Assembly: GCA_005879535.1 (NCBI GenBank)
Contig: VBKI01000066.1
Coordinates: forward strand, 93,483 to 157,482
Reading direction: 5' to 3'
DNA from: Deltaproteobacteria bacterium
GTDB taxonomy: Bacteria > Myxococcota > Myxococcia > Myxococcales > 40CM-4-68-19
DNA: 64,000 bases
The translations under genes were made by a program, and so were the position numbers. The stretch's first letter is position 1, and the number at the start of each line of letters is the position of its first letter. Under the pieces are notes generated by a model that ran no database searches, was not told where the DNA came from, and saw nothing but the letters and a program-made list of their open reading frames with translations. Shown here piece after piece: positions 50,287 through 57,579 of this stretch.

Positions 50287-53200
50287 TCAAGCGAGCTGGA
50301 TGAGCGCCGCCTGATCCAGCTCCAGCCGGGCGCCGTCGAGCGCGGCCGCCGCTTCTTCGTAGAGTTTCGTTTCCGCCTCGAGGACGCGGCGTGCCTCCGC
50401 TTCGCCGACCTTGCTCTGGGCGAGCCAGCGCAGCAGCCTTCGCGACGCGGCTTCCTTCTCCGCCTGGATTCCTCTTTTCGCCTCCTCGACCGTTGTCCGC
50501 AGACGCCGCTGCGCCTCTTCCTGCGCCACGCGAAGGGCGCCTTCCACCGCCTGCGTGAAAGCGCCCGGAGGCCCTCCTTCGGGCGCCGGCACCGGCTCGA
50601 CCCTGGAAGAATCGAGCTGCGCGCCGAGCGCATCGTCGACCCGGGCTCCGCCATGGCCATCCAGCCGCACGGGCACGCGCAGCAAGGGCTCGTCGATGTG
50701 TCGCGCCGCGCGCCGCGACGGTACGCGCGCTCCCTGCGCGAGATCGGCGGGCTCCGGCAAAGCGACGAGAAACCGCGCGTCGAGGGCAGCGCCGGACAAT
50801 CCGCGCAGGTGTGCGCGCGCCACGGTGGCCCGGCCGAGCTCGCCATCACGGACCCAGGAGAAAAGCGCCTCGACCAGGGGGTGTCCCGTGGCGAACGAGT
50901 CGTATTCTTCGTGCGTCACCGCGACGTCGCGCCGGAACGAGCCCAACACGGTCCGGTCGTCCGAGAGATCGAAGCCGGCCAATGCGTCGACCTTCAGCTC
51001 CGGACCGACGTGGAACGAGACCTGCCCCGGCAGCACGTCGACCTCCACGTCGACCGCCAGGCCTACCCGCTTCGCCGCCTCGATGGTCACGGCTTCCAGG
51101 CGCGACTCGAGCAGCGTCGCAACCGTCCGCAGCCCGGCTTCCGCGTCTGCGGTCGGGGAAAGCCGGGCGCCGATCCGCTGGCCGCCGCGCTCTGCCAGCG
51201 CGCGGACAGAGGCGAAGTCGCAACTGCGCAGATCGAGCAGCGGATCGTAAGCCCGCGCCACTTCCGCGCGCGCCGCCGACACCCGCGCGGCGAGCTTCCG
51301 CGTCATCTCCTCCCAGCGTTCGGCGTCGTCGGTGGAAGCGAGCGCAAGCAGCGACGGCTCGACGCCTTCGAGGACGGGGTCGAGGCCGCCGACCGGCTCG
51401 GTGAACACGCCGACGCCCGCGTCGAGCACGTCGAGCACGCGCGCCGCAAGCGTTCCCTCGGGGTGGAAGGCGTGGATGCGCACCTCCCGCGACTGGCCGA
51501 TGCGATCGATGCGCCCGATGCGCTGCTCGATGGCCGCGGGGCTCCAGGCGAGATCGTAGTTCACCAGCACGTGGCAGTGCTGGAAGTTGCGCCCTTCCCC
51601 GCCCAGCTCGGTGGAGAGGAGCACGCGCGGGCCGTCCGGATCGCGGAAGCGCGCAACCATCTTGTCGCGGTCCGCCGGCGAGAGGTCGCCGACGTAGCCC
51701 AAAGCCTCGATGTGCCGGCGCGCGAGCGCCGCTCGCAGGTACTCGATGGTCTCGCGCGGCTCGGCGAACACCAGCACCTTCTCGGAAGGGCCCAGCTCCG
51801 CGAGGAGGTCCTGGAACGCCTCCAGCTTCGAGTCCTTCGCCAGAGCGAGCGCGCGCTGCGCCAGCTTCTTCTCCCCCGCCGCCGAGAGACCCGCAGCGAG
51901 CGCCGGAGGCGAGCTGCCCATCCGCCGCAACAGCGAGGCGAGCACGGCGCCCGAAGGGAGCTTCGCGTGCGACAGGGCGCGGCGGACGTCATGCTCCAGC
52001 TTGCGCTCTTCCTCCGTCAGGTGGACGGGGATCCGGGTCAGGCGCCGTGGGGTGAACCCGCCCACGACCGCCCGCCGGTTGCGCAACAGGCGCGCCGAGA
52101 GGCCGTAGCTCTCGGCGAGATGCGCGAGCAGTGGCTTGCCGCGCAGCTCCCGCAGCGCGGGATCGTCCGGAAACAGCGCGGCGATGCGCTCCGCCGCGGC
52201 GGCATCGCCGCCAAGCAGCGCGCGTACTTCCGCGGAGAGATCGCCCTGCCGCGCCAGCCGTGCGCGCAGCTCCTGCTCGGTTGCTGCTGGAGCGGGATCC
52301 ACGAGGCGCAACAGCGCGTGGTATTCCGCCGGGTCGAGCTGCAGAGGCGTGGCGGTCAACAGCAGCAGGCCCCAGGTGCTGCGCGCCAGAGCCTGCGCCA
52401 CCTCGTACGCCTTGGCGCCGCGGAGGTGGTGCGCTTCGTCGACGATCACCAGGTCCCACCCGGCGCCTGCCGCGGCTTTCGTCTCCTCGCGGCTGCGCGA
52501 GAGCCATTCCAGCGAGGTGATCACCAGCGGATGACGCCCCCAAGGGGAATCATCGTCGTCCGGGGCTTCCGCTTCCGCCGCCTCGCGGTCGTCCTTCGCC
52601 CGGTCGGGATCCATCAGCGTGAACAGCAGGTTGAATTTGTGGAACAGCTCCGCCAGCCACTGCACCGTGAGGTGGCTCGGCGCGACCACCAGGCAGCGCT
52701 TGACGAGTCCGGCGTGCAGCAATCCCGAAAGGACGAGGCCGGCCTCGATGGTCTTTCCCAGCCCGACCTCGTCGGCGAGAACGAATCGCGGCTGCGGCGC
52801 CGACAGCACCTGGTGCGCTACGCTCACCTGGTGCGGCTTGACGTAGACGCGCGAGGCGAAGAGCGCGCCGAGCGCGTCGGCACGGCGCTCGAGATCGAGG
52901 CGCACCGTCTCCGAGCGAAGGTGGAAGTCTTCCGGAGCCCCCCAGCGGCCGGAAGCGAGTTGTTCCGCCGGCCCTTCGCGGGGAACCGGCGCGCGCAGGT
53001 CGGCCTCGCTCCGGATCTGCGGCTTCTTGCCGGGAATGTCGACCGTATACCGGTAGAGGTCGTCGGCAGGCCCGGGCAGCGTGCGAAGCACGCGCGCGGC
53101 GGAGCCGTCGGCGAACAGGACCGGCGATTCCGGCGCGAATCGGTAACGCGCCAGCGCGATGTCGCGCGACGACAGCATCACCGGGCCGCCGGGCCGGCCG

Positions 53201-53313
53201 GGAAACTCGGCGGAGAGGCGCGGCGGGTCGTCGCTCACCGCGAGGATGTGCCCGACGCCCCATCCCCCTTGTGCGCGGTGGATGACCTTCATCCCTTTGA
53301 GGAACCGGGGCAC
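50287..53313 (-). CDS. SNF2-family helicase, RapA/HepA-like
   Basis: The 1008-residue protein has a two-lobe SNF2 motor: Walker A ADEVGLGKTIEAG (K187), DEAH box at about 292-295, TATPLQL, and in the second lobe LLSTELGGEGRNFQHC and IEQRIGRIDRIGQ. The N-terminal 115 residues and the C-terminal 400 are unlike chromatin remodellers and resemble RapA, which recycles RNA polymerase. The GTG at 53313 has AAGG six bases upstream and is 25 bases from the divergent chrA start; an upstream frame to 53532 would overlap chrA and is rejected. The C-terminal half is rich in Arg/Ala/Glu helices. Confidence 0.9.
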   Translation of the reverse strand: MPRFLKGMKVIHRAQGGWGVGHILAVSDDPPRLSAEFPGRPGGPVMLSSRDIALARYRFAPESPVLFADGSAARVLRTLPGPADDLYRYTVDIPGKKPQIRSEADLRAPVPREGPAEQLASGRWGAPEDFHLRSETVRLDLERRADALGALFASRVYVKPHQVSVAHQVLSAPQPRFVLADEVGLGKTIEAGLVLSGLLHAGLVKRCLVVAPSHLTVQWLAELFHKFNLLFTLMDPDRAKDDREAAEAEAPDDDDSPWGRHPLVITSLEWLSRSREETKAAAGAGWDLVIVDEAHHLRGAKAYEVAQALARSTWGLLLLTATPLQLDPAEYHALLRLVDPAPAATEQELRARLARQGDLSAEVRALLGGDAAAAERIAALFPDDPALRELRGKPLLAHLAESYGLSARLLRNRRAVVGGFTPRRLTRIPVHLTEEERKLEHDVRRALSHAKLPSGAVLASLLRRMGSSPPALAAGLSAAGEKKLAQRALALAKDSKLEAFQDLLAELGPSEKVLVFAEPRETIEYLRAALARRHIEALGYVGDLSPADRDKMVARFRDPDGPRVLLSTELGGEGRNFQHCHVLVNYDLAWSPAAIEQRIGRIDRIGQSREVRIHAFHPEGTLAARVLDVLDAGVGVFTEPVGGLDPVLEGVEPSLLALASTDDAERWEEMTRKLAARVSAARAEVARAYDPLLDLRSCDFASVRALAERGGQRIGARLSPTADAEAGLRTVATLLESRLEAVTIEAAKRVGLAVDVEVDVLPGQVSFHVGPELKVDALAGFDLSDDRTVLGSFRRDVAVTHEEYDSFATGHPLVEALFSWVRDGELGRATVARAHLRGLSGAALDARFLVALPEPADLAQGARVPSRRAARHIDEPLLRVPVRLDGHGGARVDDALGAQLDSSRVEPVPAPEGGPPGAFTQAVEGALRVAQEEAQRRLRTTVEEAKRGIQAEKEAASRRLLRWLAQSKVGEAEARRVLEAETKLYEEAAAALDGARLELDQAALIQLA

Positions 53314-53338
53314 CGCGGACCTTCTATACTGGAAGGAC

Positions 53339-54631
53339 ATGGACGGCCACGCCATCGAGTCCCCGGCCGCGGCAGCGCGCCTGCGACCGCCGCTGCCGGA
53401 CTTCTTTCGCGCCTCCCTGTTCCTCGGCCTGGTGGGATTCGGCGGCGGGCTCTCGGTGCTCGCCAACATCCATGCGCTGGCGGTGAAGAAAAGGCGCTGG
53501 CTCACGGAGCGCGAGTTCACCAACACCATCACCGTCGCACAGATGCTTCCCGGCGGCGCCGCTGCGAATGCAATGGCCTACGCGGGCCTGCGATTCGGCG
53601 GACTCAAGGGCGCATTCCTCGGCTACCTCGGCTTCGTGTTGCCCGGGTGGATCGCCGTGATGGCGCTCGCGTTCCTGTACGTGCATTTCGGCACGGCGCC
53701 CAACGTGGCGACCTTGCTCGGCGGTTTCAACGCCGCGGTGATCGGGATCATCGGCGCCATCACCCTGAAGATGGCCAAGAGCGCCGTCTCGCGCCTCTGG
53801 CAGATGGGCGTGGCCGCGGGCGCGCTCCTCTTCTCCGTCCTCGGCGACGCGCCTCCCGGCGAAGTGGCATTGGTCGCGATCGGCGTCGGGCTCGCGGTCG
53901 ATCTCGGCACCAAGCGCGCCCGCCTGTTCGCGATGGAACGTCGCAAGATGCGCGAGCGGCGCGAAGCTCCGGTCGTCCTGCCCGAGGAAGGCGCTACGCT
54001 CTCCACCCAGAAATCGGAGCCTCGGAAGCCGCCGACGGAAATGAACGTCGCCAGCTGGACGGTCTTCGTGGTGATGCTCGGGATCGCGCTGCACGCCCCG
54101 GGCGTGGACGCGGAGCTGTTGCGGATCGCGTTCTCGTTCTTTCGCACCGGTCTCGGCGCGTACGGCGGCGGTTTCGCCATCGTGCCGCACCTCAAGCAGG
54201 TGGTCGAACGCGAGCACTGGATCACCGAGCGACAGTTCGCCGACGCCGTGGCCATCGGCAAGCTCACACCCGGACCGGTGCTGCTGCTGGCGACGTTCAT
54301 CGGCTATCTGCGCCATGGCTGGCTCGGCGCCGTGGTGGCGACGCTCGGCATCTTCAGCGCTCCCTTCATCCTGGTGGCGTTCGCCGGCACCTGGCTGGAC
54401 CGGATCCGCTCCCGGCGTCCGGTGCGGGCGGCGCTGCGCGGGCTCACGCCGGCCGTCCTCGGCCTGATGGCGGCGGCGGTGATCTCGCTCGGCGACACCA
54501 TCAACGGAGAGGGCGAGATCGCGATTGCGGTGGCGGTGGCGCTGACGCTCAGCCGCTTCGAGATCAACCCCGCGATCATGCTCGCGCTGGGCGGCGTGGC
54601 GCGGTTCGCCTTCCGCTTCGCGGGACTATAA
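53339..54631 (+). CDS. chrA: Chromate transporter (CHR family, two-domain)
   Basis: The 430-residue membrane protein has two homologous CHR domains, the first with GFGGGLSVLANIHAL and TITVAQMLPGG, the second with GAYGGGFAIVPHLKQ and AIGKLTPGPV. It is the long-chain form that exports chromate. About 10-12 helices are visible. A cytoplasmic charged loop of about 60 residues links the halves. It is divergent from the helicase and 9 bases before rpiA. Chromate is the family substrate; sulfate or another oxyanion is possible. Confidence 0.93.
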   Translation: MDGHAIESPAAAARLRPPLPDFFRASLFLGLVGFGGGLSVLANIHALAVKKRRWLTEREFTNTITVAQMLPGGAAANAMAYAGLRFGGLKGAFLGYLGFVLPGWIAVMALAFLYVHFGTAPNVATLLGGFNAAVIGIIGAITLKMAKSAVSRLWQMGVAAGALLFSVLGDAPPGEVALVAIGVGLAVDLGTKRARLFAMERRKMRERREAPVVLPEEGATLSTQKSEPRKPPTEMNVASWTVFVVMLGIALHAPGVDAELLRIAFSFFRTGLGAYGGGFAIVPHLKQVVEREHWITERQFADAVAIGKLTPGPVLLLATFIGYLRHGWLGAVVATLGIFSAPFILVAFAGTWLDRIRSRRPVRAALRGLTPAVLGLMAAAVISLGDTINGEGEIAIAVAVALTLSRFEINPAIMLALGGVARFAFRFAGL

Positions 54632-54640
54632 AGGAGCCGC

Positions 54641-55300
54641 ATGGACCTCGATGCGCAGCGCAGGGCAGCCGGAGAGCGCGCGGCCCAGTTCGTCCAGGAC
54701 GGGATGGTCATCGGGTACGGGACCGGACGGGGAGCGACGGCGGCGCTCGAGGCGCTGGTGAAGCGCAAGGTCCGCGTGCGCGGCGTGCCCACGTCGGAAA
54801 AGACGGTCGCGATCTGCAAGCGCCTGGGCCTCGAGATGGTCGACTTCGACCATCACCCGCGCCTCGACCTGGTCATCGACGGCGCCGACGAGGTGGATCC
54901 GCGCGGCCAGCTCCTGAAGGGTGGCGGCGGCGCGCACGTGCGGGAGAAGCTGGTGGCCCTGGCGTCCGCGCGGCGGATCGTCGTCGTCGAGGAAGCGAAG
55001 CTGGTTCCCCATCTCGGCGCCACGCGCGGGGTGCCCATCGAGGTGGTCGCCTTCGGATGGCGCGGAACCCTCGAGCGGATTGCCGCGGTCCTGCCTGGAG
55101 CGACCCACCGGGAAGGTCCTCCGACCGACAACGGCGGCGTCGTCGTCGATGCGCCCTTGCCGGCCGGCGCAAATCTCGAGCGGATCGATCGCGCCCTCAA
55201 GGGAATCGCCGGCGTCGTCGATCACGGATTGTTTCTCGATCTCTCGCCCACCGTCGTCGTGGGCGGCCCGTCCGGCGTGCGCGTGATCAGCGGTGGCTGA
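54641..55300 (+). CDS. rpiA: Ribose-5-phosphate isomerase A
   Basis: RpiA interconverts ribulose and ribose 5-phosphate, completing the pentose phosphate set encoded 5-15 kb away. The 219-residue protein has GTGRGATA near 27-34, IDGADE at 79-84, the KGGGGAHVREK active-site loop with E102 and K93, and the C-terminal block DHGLFLDLSP. An AAGGAG precedes the ATG. Its last 14 bases overlap the convergent HMA-like gene. Confidence 0.96.
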   Translation: MDLDAQRRAAGERAAQFVQDGMVIGYGTGRGATAALEALVKRKVRVRGVPTSEKTVAICKRLGLEMVDFDHHPRLDLVIDGADEVDPRGQLLKGGGGAHVREKLVALASARRIVVVEEAKLVPHLGATRGVPIEVVAFGWRGTLERIAAVLPGATHREGPPTDNGGVVVDAPLPAGANLERIDRALKGIAGVVDHGLFLDLSPTVVVGGPSGVRVISGG

Positions 55301-55556
55301 CGTAGCCGGCGCCGGAGATCGCTTTCTGGATCACGGCGGCATTTGCGGAAGCGTCGTCGAAGACGACGGTCAGCGTCTTGCTGCCCAGATCGGACGAGAC
55401 CCGGATGACCCCCCTGACCTGCTGCACCGCCGACTCCGTCTTGTACACGTCGCCCTTGCTGTGCCAGCCCTCCACTTTCAGGCTGAGCGACTGCTCGGCG
55501 GCCTGGGCGGCGAACGCAAGCGCGAGCGCGGACCAGAGGGGCTTCATGGCGCCCAT
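55287..55556 (-). CDS. Exported HMA-fold protein lacking the CxxC motif
   Basis: A 89-residue protein with a signal peptide (about 5-20, LWSALALAFAAQAA) and a heavy-metal-associated fold: SLSLKVEGWHSKGDVYKTESAVQQVRGV, IRVSSDLGSKTLTVVFDD, AVIQKAISGAGY. Where MerP-like chaperones have GMxCxxC, it has GWHSKGD, with no cysteine in the mature chain. Metal binding by that motif is therefore unlikely unless His, Asp or other residues serve. Start may be 55556 or 55547. It follows the ZIP-like gene by 32 bases and ends inside rpiA on the other strand. Confidence 0.8.
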   Translation of the reverse strand: MGAMKPLWSALALAFAAQAAEQSLSLKVEGWHSKGDVYKTESAVQQVRGVIRVSSDLGSKTLTVVFDDASANAAVIQKAISGAGYVSHR

Positions 55557-55588: not shown

Positions 55589-57124
55589 TCAGACGGCGCG
55601 CGGTCCGTGGCGCAAAGGGGCGAACCATCCGCGCACGCCCTGCGACCAGAGGGTCGCGATCGCGAGGCCCAGGAGGATCAAGCCGGCGGCGGCCCCGAAC
55701 GGCGACGATGCGACCTGCATCCCCAGGGAATCGCGGAGGCCGCGCATCGCCTGATCCGCCGCGGCCGGAGCAGCCGCCAGCGCGCCGGAGAATGACAGCA
55801 GCCAACCCGCGATCAGCGCTGCCCCGCTTTCGCCCGCCAGGATCGCAGGCCCCGCGACACGGCGGCCCTCCACGACCGCGCGTATGAAGCCGGTCCGGGT
55901 CAGCGGGCCGATCGCGAGCAGCGCGATCGCGATTCCTGGGTCCAACCCCTTGCGAACGAGCACGGCCGCGACGGCGGCCGCGCCGGCCTCGTCGAGCCGC
56001 GCCGCGAGGGCGACGATGGCAACGAGCGCAGCAGCGGGCACGAGGTTGCCGGGGAATGCCCGCATGCTCACCTCGAGGCCCGACGCGGCCATCAAGAGCG
56101 TGAGCAGCGCCGGGGCCCGCGCGCGCACCGCGGCCAGCATCTCGGCGCCGACGGGGCGGGCCGGCGCTTCCGAGCGGAAGGAGTGCGCCGCGGGCAGCGC
56201 AAGCAGGACGGTCAGAGCCGCCCATCCCATCGCGGCGGCAGGGCCGAGCAGGACCAGCAGGAGAAGGAAGGCGTCCCAGCGGAAGAAGCGCGTGCGCACG
56301 GCCAGCAGCGCCCCGGCGGCGCAGCCGACGAGGATCGCCGGAGCACAAGCGAGCGAGATCCCGCCGATGACGCGCAGCAGCTCGATCAAGGGAGGCGCCT
56401 CTTCGCGCAGGTGCATGACCGCCCCGAAGCCGGCAACCGCGAGCCCAGCGGCACAGGCAACGAGATCGAGGGCGCGTTCCAGGCGCGAACCGAAGCGCTG
56501 CGCCCGGATCTCGTCGGAGACCACGTGCAAGAGCGCGCCGGCGGTCACCGCAGTGGCCGTCTTGAGAAAAGCGCCCTCCTCGAACCCGGGCAGCGCGAAA
56601 CTGAGCAGCGCCCCTGCGATGCCCGCAGCGCCGACCAGGGCGGCGCGCAGAGTCGCGGCACGCGGCCCGCCCAGATCGAGGAACGGCAGCACGACCGCGG
56701 CGGTGAGCGGCGCATGGTGCGCGACGATGGCCGCCTCCAGATCGAGGTTCCCGCGCGGCTGCGCCAGCGCGGCGACGAGGGCCAACCCTTCCACGACCGA
56801 GTGGAAGATGAGCGCCGCAAAGCCGACCTCGGCGGAGACGCGCAGGCCGGAGAGCCCGCGGCCGCGCAAGAGCCCGGGGCCGAACGTTCGCGCCAGCCAC
56901 TCGAGGAGCCAGGGCAGCGCGAAGCCCGCCGCCATCCACAACAGGGCGACCAGTCCCTGCGAGGGAAGCACTTCCGGCAGGAGATGGAACGCGACGACGC
57001 CTGCCGCGGCCGCGAATGCGAACGTCCGGATGCGCTCGAGGATACCGGGGCGCCGCCGGGCGACCAGCGCGATGGCGCCTCCGAGGATCGCGGAAAACCC
57101 CGCGAGCATGGCGGCGTGGATCAT
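55589..57124 (-). CDS. Two-part membrane protein: ZIP-like half fused to a second permease-like half
   Basis: A 511-residue polytopic protein. Residues 1-225 follow the ZIP pattern: FHLLPEVL (H47, P50, E51), a TM4-like HSVVEGLAL (H108, E112), a degenerate TM5 HHAPLT (H136, H137), and HVVSDEI (H200, D204, E205). Residues 240-505 add about seven helices. That half has no ZIP motif; its GLDPGIAIALLAIGPLTR segment faintly recalls the ArsP/SO_0444-type permeases, which is uncertain. The ATG overlaps the regulator's stop as ATGA, so it is coupled to a Fur/Zur-type gene. A transport role for zinc or another divalent metal is likely; direction is unknown. Confidence 0.75.
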   Translation of the reverse strand: MIHAAMLAGFSAILGGAIALVARRRPGILERIRTFAFAAAAGVVAFHLLPEVLPSQGLVALLWMAAGFALPWLLEWLARTFGPGLLRGRGLSGLRVSAEVGFAALIFHSVVEGLALVAALAQPRGNLDLEAAIVAHHAPLTAAVVLPFLDLGGPRAATLRAALVGAAGIAGALLSFALPGFEEGAFLKTATAVTAGALLHVVSDEIRAQRFGSRLERALDLVACAAGLAVAGFGAVMHLREEAPPLIELLRVIGGISLACAPAILVGCAAGALLAVRTRFFRWDAFLLLLVLLGPAAAMGWAALTVLLALPAAHSFRSEAPARPVGAEMLAAVRARAPALLTLLMAASGLEVSMRAFPGNLVPAAALVAIVALAARLDEAGAAAVAAVLVRKGLDPGIAIALLAIGPLTRTGFIRAVVEGRRVAGPAILAGESGAALIAGWLLSFSGALAAAPAAADQAMRGLRDSLGMQVASSPFGAAAGLILLGLAIATLWSQGVRGWFAPLRHGPRAV

Positions 57125-57543
57125 CGCCGGCACCTCTCGCAGATGCCGCGCAGCTCGAGGACGTGCTCCTGCACGCGATACCGCGTGGCGCGGCGGACCT
57201 CGCCCAGCGCGCGCTCGAGGACGTCGGAATGGAATTCTCGCGCGCTGCCGCACTCGGTGCAGACGATGGCGTGATGGCAGCGCCGCTCCTTCTCCGAGCA
57301 GGGACGCACCGCGGAGGACCCGACGACGCGGTGGAGCAGGCCGAGCTCCAGCAGCGCGGTGAGATTCCGGTAGACGGAGACGCGGTCCATCCGGAAGCCG
57401 GCCCTGGCGAGAAGCTTCTGCAGCTCGCGCGGTCCGAGCGGACGCGATGACGCCTCGATCAGCTCGTGGAGCGCGTGCCGGGCGCGGGTGATGCGGCCGC
57501 CGCGGCTCCGCAGCGCCGCCTCGGCGCGAGTGGAAAAGCGCAC
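57121..57543 (-). CDS. Fur-family metalloregulator, probably Zur-like
   Basis: The 140-residue protein has the Fur winged-helix (SRGGRITRARHALHELI...DRVSVYRNLTALLELGLL) and the structural zinc cysteines C95/C98 (CTEC) and C135/C138 (CERC). The regulatory region includes H90-H91 and H105. GTG at 57543 gives a family-like N-terminus; a TTG at 57567 lies in the dyad at 57561-57579 and is rejected. It is coupled to the ZIP-like gene, which favours Zur over Fur, although metal choice cannot be read from sequence. Confidence 0.88.
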   Translation of the reverse strand: MRFSTRAEAALRSRGGRITRARHALHELIEASSRPLGPRELQKLLARAGFRMDRVSVYRNLTALLELGLLHRVVGSSAVRPCSEKERRCHHAIVCTECGSAREFHSDVLERALGEVRRATRYRVQEHVLELRGICERCRR

Positions 57544-57560: not shown

Positions 57561-57579
57561 GATGCAACCTTGTTGCATC
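57561..57579. promoter_or_regulatory. Perfect 19-bp dyad, candidate Zur/Fur operator
   Basis: GATGCAAC-CTT-GTTGCATC is a perfect inverted repeat with 8-bp arms and 3-bp spacer, 18 bases upstream of the regulator's GTG and overlapping the aminotransferase stop (57578-57580). Size and position suit a Fur-superfamily operator controlling the regulator and the ZIP-like gene. Confidence 0.65.

Follow-up and report, generated by a model that had tools for sequence, protein, structure and literature searches.

The locus

The window analyzed here is a stretch of 64,000 nt of contig VBKI01000066.1 (GCA_005879535.1, positions 93,483-157,482) from a Deltaproteobacteria bacterium (Myxococcota). It contains a gene in which a ZIP-type metal transporter appears to be joined to a second membrane domain. 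The following features surround and make up this gene, all positions being those of the window:

57561..57579, no strand: perfect 8-3-8 palindrome GATGCAAC-N3-GTTGCATC, an inverted repeat and putative operator
57121..57543, minus strand: Fur-family regulator gene with an inferred GTG start (Pfam FUR, E=3.5e-15)
55589..57124, minus strand: fusion gene, ATG at 57124 and stop at 55589, a single open reading frame of 511 aa
56405..57124, minus strand: N-terminal ZIP half (residues 1-240) with eight predicted TM helices (Pfam Zip match, AlphaFold model, BbZIP fold match, conserved motifs)
55589..56404, minus strand: permease half, residues 241-511, a probable decayed SO_0444/ArsP_1-type domain (hhalign, helix comparison of two models)
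55287..55547, minus strand: gene of a predicted secreted HMA-domain protein of 86 aa with a signal-peptide-like N-terminus (Pfam HMA, E=5.4e-7)

An uninterrupted chain of the 511-residue type is kept at full length in all twelve genomes analyzed from the window protein's family (called f1 below), with sequence identities of 40-76%. Because of this conservation, the chain is neither a chance reading frame nor a product of faulty assembly. The idea that an assembly or frame error has joined two genes can be regarded as negligible: the same chain occurs in twelve separate genomes, both of its halves display purifying selection at the codon level, and nothing was found in favor of such an error, which the orthologs rule out.

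The AlphaFold model of the window protein, calculated with a 12-sequence alignment (pLDDT 82, pTM 0.81), has eight helices in residues 1-240, followed by about 7-8 more. The initial annotation had described a ZIP half joined to an unrelated permease-like half of about seven helices devoid of ZIP motifs. The model agrees with the division into two halves and with the helix count, and the full chain is not one continuous ordinary ZIP fold. Likewise, in Pfam and NCBIfam searches no single family model covers all 511 residues. The permease-like character of the second half was thus correctly recognized, but this half is homologous to SO_0444/ArsP_1 and is not an unexplained domain, as described below.

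The N-terminal ZIP half

The N-terminal half resembles the ZIP family (SLC39, PF02535; BbZIP of Bordetella bronchiseptica, ZupT) in its eight helices and in the HxLPE, HxxxEG and SDE motifs of TM2, TM4 and TM7, and it differs from that family in being followed by a C-terminal extension of 270 residues. Residues 1-224 match the Pfam Zip model PF02535 with E=5.6e-8 and 32.8 bits, just below the gathering score of 35.1, and the f1 ortholog in genome G008 clears this cut-off with 45.5 bits. The motifs HLLPE (47-51), HSVVEG (108-113) and HVVSDE (200-205), noticed in the initial annotation, are present beyond what chance would produce, together with HHAPLT (136-141). Residues H47, E51, E75, H108, E112, H136, H137, H200, D204 and E205 are invariant in all twelve f1 proteins, and so is the set composed of the TM4 H-x3-E/D-G motif and the TM5 His ligand (H108, E112, G113, H136). 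Apart from the fusion protein, its genome contains no ZIP-family match.

In the AlphaFold model the N half has the eight-helix ZIP fold. BbZIP is its best PDB fold match by Foldseek (prob 1.00, TM-score 0.64 by target length), but the E-value of this match is only 0.03. In hhalign comparisons the f1 N half reaches 99.3% against the N halves of the other fusions and 97.7% against stand-alone ZIPs.

Residues H177, E181, Q207 and E211 of BbZIP (PMC9278863) would correspond to H108, E112, H136 and L140 of the window protein, an equivalence read from the TM4 and TM5 motifs and not from a residue alignment to BbZIP. Unlike BbZIP with its Q207 and E211, the window protein has HHAPL in TM5, and a leucine (Leu140) takes the place of the glutamate E211 throughout f1 (12/12). 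The motif had been called degenerate in the initial annotation. Its sequence is as quoted there, but the glutamate is equally absent from the stand-alone ZIPs of this order (8/8), which have HKVPS, HKIPS or HNTPA at that place. The absence is therefore normal in this group of Myxococcota and does not represent a degeneration peculiar to the window protein.

Tracing the C-terminal half to SO_0444/ArsP_1

The 12 f1 C halves, searched singly, have no Pfam or NCBIfam match at E<=1, NF033936 and PF03773 included; a PADLOC search returned nothing for the C half, and the second half contains no ZIP motif. A profile built from the 12 C halves and searched in 195 Myxococcota genomes matches 21 further genomes. 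Most of the proteins matched have about 580-670 residues and consist of a ZIP-like N region followed by a complete ArsP_1/SO_0444 permease. By hhalign, the f1 C half reaches 98.7% over 254 columns against the C halves of these intact fusions and 87.3% against stand-alone SO_0444 proteins. The controls, namely the ChrA of the window, stand-alone ZIPs and the protein's own N half, remain at 0.2-0.3%. Judged by these profile comparisons, the second half is a known domain in a decayed state, homologous to SO_0444/ArsP_1, and not an unknown one. An ArsP/SO_0444-type relationship had been proposed as a check in the initial annotation, and the proposal led to the right family.

A different interpretation would be that ZIP is joined here to a permease fold that is unrelated or new. 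The 12 members without a Pfam or NCBIfam match would fit this, and so would the lack of a PDB fold match for the C half: in fold searches with the models of the window protein and of the intact fusion L043, the ZIP half was matched and the permease half was not. No SO_0444/ArsP transmembrane structure was found in the PDB by sequence. However, the C half leads to ArsP_1/SO_0444 in the profile search as well as in hhalign, the controls being clean, and the intermediate sequences L013 and L014 retain ASGAT-like remnants. A new fold is thus very improbable. When the C-half profile was searched against PDB sequences, only weak matches to PsaL appeared, which were judged to be due to chance.

What the permease half has lost

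The decay of the permease half, which went unnoticed in the initial annotation, is most evident in its first repeat. In the alignments, all twelve f1 proteins are missing a segment of about 60 residues, which bears the CSC motif in the intact fusions. In L043, an intact fusion whose model has a pLDDT of 84 and a pTM of 0.81, permease repeat 1 begins with a long helix (226-263), which is followed by helices 274-285, 292-304, 309-322, 324-334 and 336-358; the CSC motif opens helix 292-304. In the f1 model, helix 245-273 leads directly to helices 283-293 and 295-309. By comparison of the two models, the three helices around CSC (274-285, 292-304 and 309-322 of L043) are gone as a unit in f1. As both the stand-alone SO_0444 proteins and the fusions possess the CSC hairpin, its absence from f1 is most simply read as a loss.

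In repeat 2, the CASGATP motif is eroded to a RLDEAGA-type sequence in the window protein, with the loss of both Cys and Pro, and GPATN has become GPLTR. The permease half of the window protein is shortened and free of cysteines. The Thr-Pro of CASGATP is present in all 13 fusions, and the Pro is found in none of the 12 f1 proteins. Remnants of the motif survive in L013 and L014 as ASASGAAL and ASASGATL. The window C half therefore has the profile homology and the helix order of SO_0444 (NF033936) and ArsP_1 (PF03773), save for the missing hairpin, but unlike these families it has no CSC, CASGATP or GPATN and is matched by neither family model. The f1 C halves nevertheless keep an invariant tail, G-x-R-G-x-F, and the invariant residues P262, A263 and G406.

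Intact fusions and reciprocal decay

Proteins that combine a ZIP domain and an intact permease are found in at least nine families of Myxococcota apart from the window's own, so the extra domain does not stand unexplained, as had been claimed in the initial annotation. The loci taken as intact ZIP-SO_0444 fusions are L040-L050, L053, L056, L057, L069, L077 and L086. Their permeases contain the motifs PLPLCSCGVLP, CASGATP and GPATN and match PF03773 with E-values of 1e-28 to 1e-43 and NF033936 with E-values of 1e-35 to 1e-61. Only two of their N regions match a ZIP model alone (L043 to ZupT and L056 to Zip), and the ZIP identity of the others was established by alignment and profile comparison. 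The L043 model also matches BbZIP (prob 1.00).

The window protein and the intact fusions have the same domain order, and yet their patterns of conservation are opposite. The mean pairwise identity is 66% in the N half and 39% in the C half of f1, versus 28% and 41%, respectively, in the intact fusions. In the ZIP half of the latter, only H108, D/E112 and H136 are invariant (13/13), and the residues of TM2 and TM7 are often lost. The decay is reciprocal: f1 is eroded in its permease half and the intact fusions are eroded in their ZIP half.

The reduced ligand set of the intact fusions, with the permease complete, might indicate that the ZIP half is an efflux part or a metal sensor or gate for the permease, and that the window protein keeps this role without transport. 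The f1 pattern is the opposite of that expected, with all of the ZIP residues conserved and the permease motifs lost, which makes this explanation improbable.

Both f1 halves are constrained. In f1 pairs, the N half gives dN/dS values (Nei-Gojobori) of 0.08-0.30, compared with 0.19-0.58 in the C half; dS is high in some pairs. The evolutionary rate of the C half is about 2-3 times that of the N half in most pairs. By this codon measure, the C half is relaxed and still under purifying selection. Because of this selection and the invariant tail, the C half must do something. It is conceivable that it still works as a permease by way of an altered pathway without cysteines, in which case the protein would both import and export or would form a single composite transporter. 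Such activity would agree with the selection on the C half, with its invariant tail and the residues P262, A263 and G406, and with the retention of the full-length fusion in every f1 genome. On the other hand, the two motifs that mark the metal path of SO_0444/ArsP_1 are missing or eroded, an entire hairpin is absent, and the C half evolves faster than its partner. An active C half is therefore considered fairly unlikely.

Phylogenetic trees were calculated for the N halves (41 rows, L103 and L116 being left out) and for the C halves (35 rows); they are unrooted and have long branches. In the N-half tree, f1 and the fusions are split from the stand-alone ZIPs with a support of 100/100, and in the C-half tree they are split from the stand-alone SO_0444 proteins with a support of 100/99, so that both halves group with those of the intact fusions. 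The AU test does not reject the alternative that places the f1 C half with the stand-alone SO_0444 proteins (p-AU=0.126). The simplest reading of these trees is that both halves descend from one fusion, which would then have decayed reciprocally. Fusions were sought in Myxococcota and in plasmids. A tblastn search of plasmids with an intact fusion gave one record, which matched the permease part only. In the literature searched, no description of a ZIP-ArsP/SO_0444 fusion was found, although a negative search of this kind does not prove that there is none.

The operon and its regulator

The gene of the Fur-family regulator overlaps the start of the fusion gene by 4 bases. Its inferred GTG start is backed by an ATG at the same place in orthologs. 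A Fur-family gene adjoins the fusion in 10 of the 12 f1 loci, and Fur genes are also found beside the intact fusions of genomes G087 and G186. The third gene of the apparent operon codes for the HMA-domain protein, in which the CxxC metal motif is replaced by GWHSKGD; an HMA gene with the same GWHSKGD motif adjoins the fusion in several orthologous loci. The order Fur-family gene, fusion gene, HMA gene thus has the appearance of an operon. No sigma-70 promoter was recognized before it by consensus.

The palindrome is located in front of the Fur-family gene and overlaps the stop codon of an upstream aminotransferase-like gene. The form TGCAACN3GTTGCA has this sole exact copy in the 64 kb, was found in none of 100 shuffles, and occurs once in the 5.16-Mb genome. 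The longer form, with up to 2 mismatches, occurs at only one other place in the genome, on another contig. Genomes G001, G002, G005, G006 and G008 likewise have a single copy at this operon. Around the other copies in G004, G007 and G009, no metal genes adjoin consistently.

ZIP importers belong to Zur regulons (PMC6103462). As in the Zur regulons with zupT and znuABC, a Fur-family gene with a putative operator in the form of a palindrome directly precedes a ZIP gene in the window; in contrast to them, the palindrome has no further exact copy in the genome and is absent from znuABC. The znuABC genes are encoded elsewhere in the window's genome, and no palindrome with up to 3 mismatches occurs in the 10 kb around them. 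The regulator therefore appears to be dedicated to the fusion operon, and its identity as a general Zur is unsupported.

Two genomes, G009 and G011, have kept the fusion and have neither ZnuA/ABC-3 matches nor a neighboring Fur gene. A ChrA-like chromate-transporter gene and rpiA (53159-54631, plus strand) are convergent to the window operon, and this order is kept in several orthologous loci.

Proposed function

The computed homologies of the two halves, the segment that is missing, the reciprocal pattern of conservation and the gene order make it possible to outline a probable history and role of the window protein, in which the metal, the direction of transport and the role of the C half are the conjectural parts. 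The protein is probably a ZIP-type importer under Fur control that carries a decommissioned SO_0444/ArsP_1 permease half, derived from an ancestral fusion of two transporters. The ancestor would have had a ZIP-type divalent-metal transporter at its N-terminus, fused to a complete metal-efflux permease of the SO_0444/ArsP_1 type. SO_0444 owes its designation as a Cu/Zn efflux protein to mutant fitness data (PMC3219624). In the f1 lineage the ZIP half would have been kept under strong constraint, and the permease half would have lost the re-entrant hairpin segment of about 60 residues with CSC in repeat 1, together with the Cys/Pro motif of repeat 2. The ZIP half would then import a divalent metal, most likely Zn, under the control of the Fur-family regulator, using the same elevator mechanism as BbZIP. 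The C half would no longer conduct metal and might serve as a membrane scaffold or as an oligomerization or regulatory module.

As a rule, the importer and the exporter of a given metal are distinct proteins with opposite regulation. The presence of ZIP-SO_0444 fusions in so many Myxococcota families, and in that of the window, raises the question of whether one chain can do both. A bolder suggestion, which seems rather unlikely, is that the ZIP-SO_0444 chain acts in many Myxococcota as a single bidirectional device that sets the level of a metal, and that in f1 its exporter half has been switched off and now serves as a permanent scaffold or regulator of the ZIP elevator. If this were true, the window family would be a natural experiment in the dismantling of such a device. 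The reciprocally decayed lineages offer a direct route to testing the contribution of each half. The window protein also illustrates that a C-terminal region which matches no family can be followed back to a known domain that has decayed.

Related permeases and neighboring genes

Several observations concern other members of these families. In genome G075 (L124:5012-8007), an intact ZIP-SO_0444 fusion gene is convergent, as judged by eye, with the gene of a COG0523-type GTPase. GTPases of this class are often found in Zur regulons. In L058:1456-3570, L060 and L061 (genomes G063, G066 and G060), an SO_0444-type permease is in frame with an HflK-like SPFH domain; the G063 protein matches NF033936 and TIGR01933, and these SO_0444-SPFH fusions span several genera of one Myxococcota family. 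The window's own genome encodes ArsP_1-type permeases at L028:1111-3813 and L027:401-1498 (contigs C58 and C46), in which GVCVNCAAPI replaces PLCSCG. The L028 permease continues in frame into a region that, by eye, is FG-GAP/VCBS-repeat-like.
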